Positions 1,261-3,111 of a stretch of 45,889 bases of DNA are shown piece after piece; positions within the stretch are counted from its first letter, which is position 1; each line of letters opens with the position of its first letter. The position numbers were made by a program, and so were the translations under genes. The notes beneath the pieces were generated by a model that saw only the letters and a list, made by a program, of their open reading frames with translations, was not told the DNA's origin and searched no databases. Source of the DNA: a bacterium (lineage in GTDB: Bacteria; Patescibacteriota; Microgenomatia; Levybacterales; UBA12049); assembly GCA_021791545.1 (NCBI GenBank), contig JAJYWL010000011.1:1-45889 (forward strand), given 5' to 3'.

Positions 1261-1902
1261 TTATTTTATGAGGTTTGTAAGAGTATTAAGGATGTCTTGA
1301 AGTCCTTTGACTATGCTACTGAAAGCTGTTTGTGGAACGTTTACTTCAAATTCGGGAGTTGGTGATGCAACTGGTGTTACGGTCGGTGTTGCGGTAGGAC
1401 TGACCGATGGTTCGGGAGTAACAGACGGTTCGGGAGTAACGGTTGGTGTAGAACTTGGTGTAATTGTAGGCGTTATGGTGGGAGTTACTGTTACTTTATT
1501 ATCGTCTTTGTCTTGGTCTTCGTCTTTATCTTCTTTATTTCTATTATCTACAACTATTCTAGTTGCAGTGTAGGTGGAATCTGTTACTGTTCCTTTTATC
1601 ATTGCATACATTCCTGTCGATATGTTTCCTGTTATTTTAGTATTGGAATCTATATTGATCTGAAGAGTACCTAATGTAATAGAGTTGGAAGAGGAAGCAG
1701 TAATCTTTCCTTTTACCATAAAGTTATCATCTTTTATTATTGACTGGAATTTTTCTTTTCCGAAGTCTTCTCTGGAAATCTGTAATCTATCTTGTGTATT
1801 TAATGTAGTTCTTTCCTGATCTTGTGCATACGATGCTGCGCTTATTAAAGAAAGAAATAGTGCTGTAGAGATTGTAAAAATTATTAAATATTTTTTGCTC
1901 AT
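1261..1902 (-). CDS. Secreted DUF5666-like beta-domain protein with Thr-Pro linker
   Basis: 213 residues. A signal peptide occupies residues 1-26 (hydrophobic core then SAASYA before QDQ). Residues about 60-120 form a small beta domain (VKGKITASSSNSITLGTL and the following strands) like the DUF5666 fold. Next come a very acidic patch (KEDKDEDQDKDD), a Thr-Pro-rich repeat linker (about 138-185) and a C-terminal amphipathic helix (residues about 192-213). It probably sits outside the membrane. It is divergent from the ECF sigma operon and shares the palindromic promoter element with it, so it is a plausible target gene of that sigma factor. Confidence 0.65.
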   Translation of the reverse strand: MSKKYLIIFTISTALFLSLISAASYAQDQERTTLNTQDRLQISREDFGKEKFQSIIKDDNFMVKGKITASSSNSITLGTLQINIDSNTKITGNISTGMYAMIKGTVTDSTYTATRIVVDNRNKEDKDEDQDKDDNKVTVTPTITPTITPSSTPTVTPEPSVTPEPSVSPTATPTVTPVASPTPEFEVNVPQTAFSSIVKGLQDILNTLTNLIK

Positions 1903-1910
1903 GTAATATA

Positions 1911-1954
1911 TAACGAAAGTTTAATTTTTTCGTTACATGTATTAGTGATACAAT
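1911..1954. promoter_or_regulatory. Symmetric divergent promoter: ECF-type element plus housekeeping -10
   Basis: TAACGAAA (1911-1918) and its exact reverse complement TTTCGTTA (1928-1935) flank a 9-base spacer. Read in either direction this gives AAC-N16-CGTTA, the usual layout of an ECF sigma -35/-10 pair. It therefore could fire toward the secreted protein (ATG at 1902) and the sigma operon (ATG at 1962). Toward the sigma gene there is also an extended housekeeping -10, TGA-TACAAT (1946-1954), seven bases before the ATG. Confidence 0.5.
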
Positions 1955-1961
1955 ATGCCGA

Positions 1962-2471
1962 ATGAGATTTTCAGAAGATTTCGACGCTATATATATAAGG
2001 TATTCCGACCAGTTATACAGATATATCTATACGAGTGTTAAGGATGCATATCTGGCAGAAGACCTTACGGGAGAAGTATTTCTGAGAGTTTGGAAAAAAT
2101 GGAAAGATATAAAGCAAGACTTTATACAAGCACTTTTATATAAAACGGCAAAGAATATAGTAATAGACTATTATAGAAGCCGTAAAAATAAAAAGAATGT
2201 ATCTTTGGAAGAGACTGTTGAGATGGGTCTTGAACCCTCTTACGACGAAGATCTGATAGAAAAAATTAATAAAGATACAAATATACAAATGATAACCGGT
2301 GCCATGAGTAAATTACCGGAAAATCTAAAAGAAGTTTTAGTTTTAAGATTTGTAAATGATTTATCGGCAAAAGAGGCAGGTGAAATCCTAAACATAAGCG
2401 AAGGTAATGTAAGAGTATTACAGTATAGGGCACTTAATAAATTAAAGGAGGTTTTAAAAAATGGAAAATGA
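1962..2471 (+). CDS. ECF-type RNA polymerase sigma factor
   Basis: 169 residues, the usual size of an ECF sigma factor. Region 2 covers about residues 6-75 (FDAIYIRYSDQLYRYIY, then AYLAEDLTGEVFLRVWKKW for -10 recognition). Region 4 covers about 115-165 (LPENLKEVLVLRFVNDLSAK followed by the helix-turn-helix EAGEILNISEGNVRVLQYRA). There is no region 1.1 or 3. The next gene overlaps its last 11 bases and encodes a membrane protein of the type that often acts as anti-sigma in this lineage. The palindromic ECF-like promoter upstream suggests autoregulation (inference). Confidence 0.88.
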   Translation: MRFSEDFDAIYIRYSDQLYRYIYTSVKDAYLAEDLTGEVFLRVWKKWKDIKQDFIQALLYKTAKNIVIDYYRSRKNKKNVSLEETVEMGLEPSYDEDLIEKINKDTNIQMITGAMSKLPENLKEVLVLRFVNDLSAKEAGEILNISEGNVRVLQYRALNKLKEVLKNGK

Positions 2472-3111
2472 ACTTATTAAAGAATTATTAAAAAGCGGTG
2501 CTTCGTCTAAAGAAGCAGAAGAGCTTAGTCAGTTAACTAAAGTTTTTGACGGGCTAAAAGTAGAAAGAAGCTATCTTCTTAAAAGAAAATTTCTTGAAGG
2601 AGAGATACGGGAACAGAAAAGGTTTATCCCCAGATGGTTTCTTGCTCCTGCCCTTGCTTTTGCATTAGTTATCTTAGTGGGAGGACTTACTGCAGCTAAG
2701 GCTCAGTCAAGTCTTCCGGGAGATCCTCTTTATCCATTAAAAAGAGCAACAGAGGAAGCTATTTCCATAATTGATCCGTCTTTTAATAACCAGATTCTCC
2801 AAAGAAGAAGTGAGGAAGTAGAAAAAGTATCGCAACAAGAAAGTCCTAAAAAACTTAATAAAGCGGTAGGGGAATATAAGAAAGCTCTGGAAAATGAAAA
2901 TGTTTCAGACAAAACGATTGAAGAAAGCCAGAAAAAACTCGAGAAAGTAGAAGAGACTGTAAAAGAGCAGGATAAAGAAAAGATTAAGAATCTCATACAG
3001 GAATCCGAAAAGAAACAAGAGGAAGTTAAAAAGAAAATAGAAGATCAGAATAAAGACAATCAAATAAAAGATAACGAGGATTTAAAAATAAAAAACTCTA
3101 CAGAATTTTAA
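2461..3111 (+). CDS. DUF5667-type membrane protein, probable anti-sigma partner
   Basis: 216 residues. Residues 1-58 are a charged cytoplasmic part; 61-82 are one membrane helix (FLAPALAFALVILVGGLTAA). Directly after it comes the segment SLPGDPLYPLKRATEEA, which is diagnostic of DUF5667 proteins. The rest (about 120-216) is a Lys/Glu-rich coiled coil outside the membrane. It overlaps the sigma gene by 11 bases and has a strong Shine-Dalgarno sequence of its own, AAGGAGGT at 2445-2452. Position and topology fit a membrane anti-sigma factor or sensor; direct sigma binding is inferred, as no ASD or ZAS motif is visible. Confidence 0.7.
   Translation: MENELIKELLKSGASSKEAEELSQLTKVFDGLKVERSYLLKRKFLEGEIREQKRFIPRWFLAPALAFALVILVGGLTAAKAQSSLPGDPLYPLKRATEEAISIIDPSFNNQILQRRSEEVEKVSQQESPKKLNKAVGEYKKALENENVSDKTIEESQKKLEKVEETVKEQDKEKIKNLIQESEKKQEEVKKKIEDQNKDNQIKDNEDLKIKNSTEF

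Follow-up and report, generated by a model that had tools for sequence, protein, structure and literature searches.

A palindromic element at positions 1911 to 1935 of the window (the whole 45,889-nucleotide stretch of Patescibacteriota DNA analyzed here) is very probably a bidirectional promoter for the adjacent ECF sigma factor, serving the sigma operon on one side and a secreted protein on the other. Its core is TAACGAAA-N9-TTTCGTTA, which can also be read as TAACG-N15-CGTTA. The preliminary description of this region had reported arms that are perfect reverse complements (1911 to 1918 and 1928 to 1935), an AAC-N16-CGTTA arrangement on both strands, and flanking genes for an ECF sigma factor followed by a DUF5667 protein (plus strand) and for a secreted DUF5666-like protein (minus strand). 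All three statements are borne out: upon checking the sequence, AAC lies at 1912 to 1914 and CGTTA at 1931 to 1935 on the plus strand, with AAC at 1934 to 1932 and CGTTA at 1915 to 1911 on the minus strand, and the arms extend to 1908 to 1918 and 1928 to 1938 at 91% complementarity. The features are as follows.

1261 to 1902, minus strand: gene for a secreted DUF5666 protein, the putative divergent target (Pfam E = 5e-9; signal-peptide-like start)
1909 to 1915, minus strand: predicted DUF5666-ward ECF -10, CGTTATA (its CGT lies 10 nt from the start codon, ATG at 1902)
1910 to 1914, plus strand: predicted sigma-ward ECF -35, ATAAC, with GAAA immediately after it (resembles the family GT[AT]AC plus A-rich stretch)
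1911 to 1935, no strand assigned: putative interleaved divergent ECF promoter, palindromic core (9/9 family loci and L108)
1931 to 1937, plus strand: predicted -10 of the sigma-ward ECF promoter, CGTTACA (invariant in 10/10 loci; AAC-N16-CGT spacing)
1932 to 1936, minus strand: predicted -35 of the DUF5666-ward ECF promoter, GTAAC (exact family consensus GTWAC)
1946 to 1954, plus strand: predicted extended -10 (TGATACAAT) of an additional sigma promoter of the housekeeping type (7 nt before the ATG)
1962 to 2471, plus strand: ECF sigma gene, 169 aa (Pfam, NCBIfam, orthologues)
2461 to 3111, plus strand: gene for a DUF5667 protein with one predicted transmembrane (TM) segment, overlapping the sigma stop codon (Pfam)

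The sigma factor contains only Sigma70_r2 (residues 11 to 75) and Sigma70_r4 (114 to 163) in Pfam, the domain content of ECF (group 4) sigma factors, and it scores 92.1 bits against the NCBIfam sigma70-ECF model (cut-off 42.9). The Pfam match of the protein encoded downstream to DUF5667 falls slightly below the 27-bit cut-off (E = 2.6e-5, 25.0 bits), and a TM protein of this type is encoded next after the sigma factor in most relatives; it is a probable membrane anti-sigma factor. We found no mention of DUF5667 in the literature searched. Across families, proteins of this type carry a motif like SLPGDxLYPxK right after the TM segment, and their cytoplasmic part is very variable.

Symmetry by itself says little about the element. 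The first 6 kb of the window contain 29 inverted repeats, each 8 nt or longer, an 8-base inverted repeat is ordinary in AT-rich DNA, and we dropped symmetry alone as evidence since short inverted repeats are common in the window. Allowing up to three mismatches, chance alone would produce the pattern 0.6 times per window. The 775-kb genome (96% complete, 17 contigs), which has the usual size for Patescibacteria, contains a single exact copy of the palindrome, and a search of the same 775 kb for TAAC-N16-CGTTA yields no second occurrence beyond the palindrome. What excludes chance is the conservation of position and spacing across loci, not the symmetry.

A family search of 73 genomes returned nine close sigma orthologues beyond the window's own (55 to 69% identity). 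Nine loci, the window included, have intact upstream DNA (55 to 100% protein identity, several genera), and TAACG-N15-CGTTA is present in all nine. The preliminary description had proposed looking for the palindrome upstream of orthologous sigma/DUF5667 operons and had held that its loss from relatives that keep the operon would count against a promoter; no such case occurs in the clade. A tenth family contig starts inside the element and still reads TTTCGTTACAT, and the site also lies upstream of the sigma gene of L108, which belongs to another family (E = 2e-59). Throughout, it sits between the sigma gene and the divergent neighbor with invariant spacing, while the central spacer and the flanks vary. 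The columns of TAACGAAA and CGTTACA are invariant over ten aligned loci, and each column of ATAACGAAA, around the sigma-ward -35, is kept in 9 or 10 of them. In the right arm, 7/10 loci retain the inner TTT, inner arm pairs being broken or asymmetric in the other three; since these bases are lost while the boxes are invariant, the conserved entity, as read from the alignment, is two boxes at a fixed distance and not a perfect palindrome. A TAACG-N15-CGTTA site is found in 10/10 genomes with a sigma factor of this clade; among the 63 remaining genomes of the family, 15 have a match somewhere. The genomes are phylogenetically related, and conservation within the clade does not amount to ten independent events. 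A search of genome contigs for close sigma orthologues gave nothing useful, the matches reaching at most 32% identity.

The boxes recur well outside this clade. For 59 more distant sigma homologues (clade excluded), we scanned the 250 bp before the gene for GT[AT]AC-Nk-CGT, with k from 8 to 26. Toward the sigma gene, k = 16 occurs at 24/59 loci and any other k at 0 to 2; away from it, k = 16 occurs at 17/59 loci and any other k at 0 or 1. The looser [ACT]AC-N16-CGT is found at 37 (toward) and 23 (away) loci, versus 6.3 ± 2.4 in shuffles. Because the N16 peak appears on both strands of these non-clade homologues, the motif is best read as an ECF promoter and not as a look-alike operator, and AC-N16-CGT is the probable autoregulatory promoter motif of a large sigma family, often placed before the family's own sigma gene and in many cases divergent, with a secreted-protein gene on the other side. 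AAC -35 and CGT -10 boxes, an adjacent anti-sigma factor and positive autoregulation are hallmarks of ECF systems (PMC8103513); at 9/9 clade loci, AAC and CGT stand upstream of the sigma factor's own gene at the conserved N16 spacing. The -10 varies by lineage (CGTTATA, CGTTTAA, CGTTCTA, CGTAT), and both divergent -10s of a locus can share the lineage type (CGTTTAATA at L102, CGTTTAAA at L104, CGTTCTA at L112), as expected if the same sigma factor reads both sites.

A weight matrix built from 47 non-clade sites only, with GT required in its construction, ranks the palindrome as the top match on both strands at all nine family loci and L108. The score is higher leftward (DUF5666-ward) than rightward at 7/10 loci, and we infer that the DUF5666-ward direction is the stronger. 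The sigma-ward boxes, ATAAC and CGTTACA, compare with a consensus of GTWAC and CGTTATA, and their matrix p-values are modest (0.000 to 0.09), in part because the matrix required GT. At L111, the spacing test found no site of the GT[AT]AC-N16-CGT type upstream of the sigma gene, and we do not count this locus as support; GTAAC-N16-CGTCATA lies directly after that gene (around 1450 to 1520), before the TM-protein gene, which may have an ECF-type promoter of its own.

Both arms appear to be used in two directions. The base after the AC of the -35 is A at 41 of the 47 sites of other families in the weight-matrix set; in the clade it is G, in both arms and at 10/10 loci. On the opposite strand this G pairs with the C of CGT; a one-way promoter, whichever its direction, does not account for it in both arms, so that dual use of each arm as -35 and -10 would be its only explanation. 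Left start codon and left CGT are separated by 10 to 15 nt in the clade (L008 and L010 excepted) and at most loci with the shared -35 layout described below, a distance that predicts a leaderless or near-leaderless left mRNA. On the other side, TGnTAnnAT stands 6 to 8 nt before the sigma start at 11/11 loci, and this extended -10 probably supplies basal sigma factor, also from a leaderless mRNA. A simple sigma70 scan, which is blind to an extended -10 without a -35, did not pick out the palindrome and gave no complete -35/-10 pair for the sigma gene. At L009 the sigma orthologue seems to begin at an ATA (1501), 7 nt past the extended -10, where relatives have ATG; either the start codon is of a rare type or a sequencing error has altered it.

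Three other readings of the palindrome bear consideration. A dimeric repressor or activator might bind it as an operator and control both genes, in which case the likeness of the palindrome to ECF boxes would be incidental, and the perfect 8-bp arms in the window genome and the housekeeping-type extended -10 close downstream would both suit such a role. An operator, however, leaves the pattern of conservation unaccounted for, in which inner arm bases are asymmetric at 3/10 loci while AAC, CGT and N16 never change; homologues that have no palindrome retain the -35/-10 motif with its N16 spacing on at least one strand, and the sigma factor is the sole DNA-binding regulator in the operon. The palindrome is also not positioned as an operator of the extended -10 promoter, because the distance between them ranges from <10 to >90 bp (L011 versus L008). 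We regard this reading as quite improbable. The thought that a short inverted repeat, common as these are in the window, arose by chance or encodes an RNA hairpin or terminator is more improbable by far: a 9-bp fold is possible (-9.1 kcal/mol for the whole stretch, z -1.8), but no terminator pattern was found at the palindrome, its arms are invariant and not compensated, with inner pairs broken at 3/10 loci, and it lies upstream of both predicted starts.

It is likewise unlikely that the DUF5666-ward promoter alone works, with the sigma gene expressed from its housekeeping-type promoter and the sigma-ward boxes a by-product of symmetry. The leftward boxes, closer to the family consensus at 7/10 loci, the tightly constrained leftward start distance and the sigma gene's own extended -10 speak for this arrangement; yet it leaves unexplained why the C of the right-arm CGT (at most sites of other families, GTAAC is followed by A) and the GAAA of the left arm never vary, and non-clade homologues show the sigma-ward site (24) more often than the reverse one (17). 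The promoter anatomy, its conservation, the spacing rule and the dual coding of the arms are evident from the sequence comparisons; from these we infer that transcription does take place and that the adjacent sigma factor is the one that reads the site.

As a two-way promoter, the palindrome would be bound in either orientation by the holoenzyme carrying the adjacent ECF sigma factor. Rightward, from the ATAAC -35 and the CGTTACA -10, it would transcribe the sigma-DUF5667 operon in positive autoregulation; leftward, from the GTAAC -35 and the CGTTATA -10, it would transcribe the secreted DUF5666 gene, probably as a leaderless mRNA. Since the -35 of one direction and the -10 of the opposite direction occupy the same arm, the two bindings should be mutually exclusive, with one polymerase at a time on the palindrome. 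Basal sigma factor would come from the separate housekeeping-type promoter at 1946 to 1954, and the DUF5667 protein, as the putative membrane anti-sigma factor, would hold the sigma factor until an envelope signal frees it.

Divergent promoters of this sigma family come in at least two layouts. In the interleaved one, that of the window's clade, the -35s are 22 bp apart and each lies atop the opposite strand's -10. At 12 other loci the two -35s (GTWAC) coincide centrally, at offset 0, with the -10s outside (for example, TTGTTACAA, read both ways); several of these (L102, L104, L112 and L116) resemble the window in having a homologous sigma factor, a TM-protein neighbor, a divergent secreted-protein gene and the N16 spacing. 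The shared layout is possible because GTWAC is its own reverse complement, and the interleaved one because CGTTAC contains GTTAC. In a 70-sequence tree, the loci with the interleaved form, those of family f1 and L108, make up a single clade (support 100/97), L141 being a doubtful additional case, and the shared -35 form lies inside a separate 21-row group. The loci L135, L138 and L141 (families f5 and f10) have a partly interleaved look, and we left them uncounted, having found no convincing left gene. The interleaved form is essentially confined to one clade. Both layouts should exclude two polymerases bound at once. We lean somewhat toward the view that, thanks to the self-palindromic -35, two-way promoters with mutually exclusive directions could evolve in two or more layouts and that, in the interleaved one, sigma amplification and secreted output compete for one polymerase, with the quality of the half-sites setting the ratio.

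Canonical EcfG promoters consist of AAC and CGTT boxes (PMC8103513), and the window has AAC-N16-CGTT on both strands. Like EcfG and other autoregulated ECF promoters (PMC8103513), the element places the same core boxes beside an operon for a sigma factor and a candidate anti-sigma factor, with positive feedback expected. Unlike them, it reads almost identically on the two strands and would also drive a secreted-protein gene in the opposite direction; its -35 consensus GTWAC is itself palindromic, and the anti-sigma candidate is a DUF5667 protein and not NepR or RseA. Instead of a NepR anti-sigma factor and PhyR, the neighbors of the sigma factor are DUF5667 and DUF5666 proteins. Bidirectional promoters with a symmetric -10 have starts typically 18 bp apart (range, 7 to 25; Warman et al., PMC12825309; PMC10268837). 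They share with the window a pseudosymmetric sequence, RNA polymerase in two orientations and possible competition, but they rely on one shared -10, whereas the -10s of the window (1909 to 1915 and 1931 to 1937) do not overlap, each -35 lies over the opposite -10, an alternative sigma factor would be involved and the predicted starts are about 36 bp apart.

Known bacterial bidirectional promoters rest on the symmetry of the sigma70 -10; here a whole predicted -35/-10 promoter of an alternative sigma factor is nearly a mirror image. Several genera keep it between a regulator and its putative target, and sister sigma factors have the related shared -35 layout. We found no palindromic ECF promoter in the literature searched, though one may still be published. 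To our knowledge, almost no promoter has been studied in organisms of this kind. The arrangement offers a compact, testable model of how very small genomes could tie a feedback loop to its output, and the GTWAC-N16-CGT rule makes regulon prediction possible in these bacteria.

In the window genome, the target set may comprise just the two flanking transcripts. We found no nonpalindromic target of the sigma factor there, for which reason its specificity cannot be read from independent sites, and the one-mismatch sites C13:2968 and C3:33327 were dropped as regulon members, both lying inside long open frames. Some relatives probably have further one-way targets. L169 and L172 encode homologous small proteins (about 66 to 74 aa), each just downstream of a one-way GTAAY-N16-CGTTWTA and a Shine-Dalgarno sequence, which makes this protein a possible conserved regulon member. 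As leads only, L160 has a plausible one-way site before a secreted protein, and at L162 a second palindromic site precedes the gene of a LapA-like membrane protein. At L042 (around 1631 to 1720) and L066 (around 1570 to 1660), peptides of about 29 aa with strong Shine-Dalgarno sequences lie near GTAAC/ATAAC-N16-CGTTAYA and a Crp-family gene.

The left gene encodes a DUF5666-type or other secreted protein at most loci. At L008 and L010 it encodes instead a 24- to 26-aa peptide with a good Shine-Dalgarno site. The proposal that one site could switch on the sigma factor and its envelope target is very probably right, with the qualification that the left gene is not of the DUF5666 type in these two relatives. 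Among 16 divergent secreted proteins, 14 end in a likely amphipathic helix (e.g., FLNQILSFLENLI) whose hydrophobic moment exceeds that of most sequences obtained by shuffling its residues; the proteins otherwise differ in sequence. The C terminus of the window's DUF5666 protein (1261 to 1345) forms a likely amphipathic helix, and the short peptides of L008 and L010 resemble such a C-terminal helix alone.
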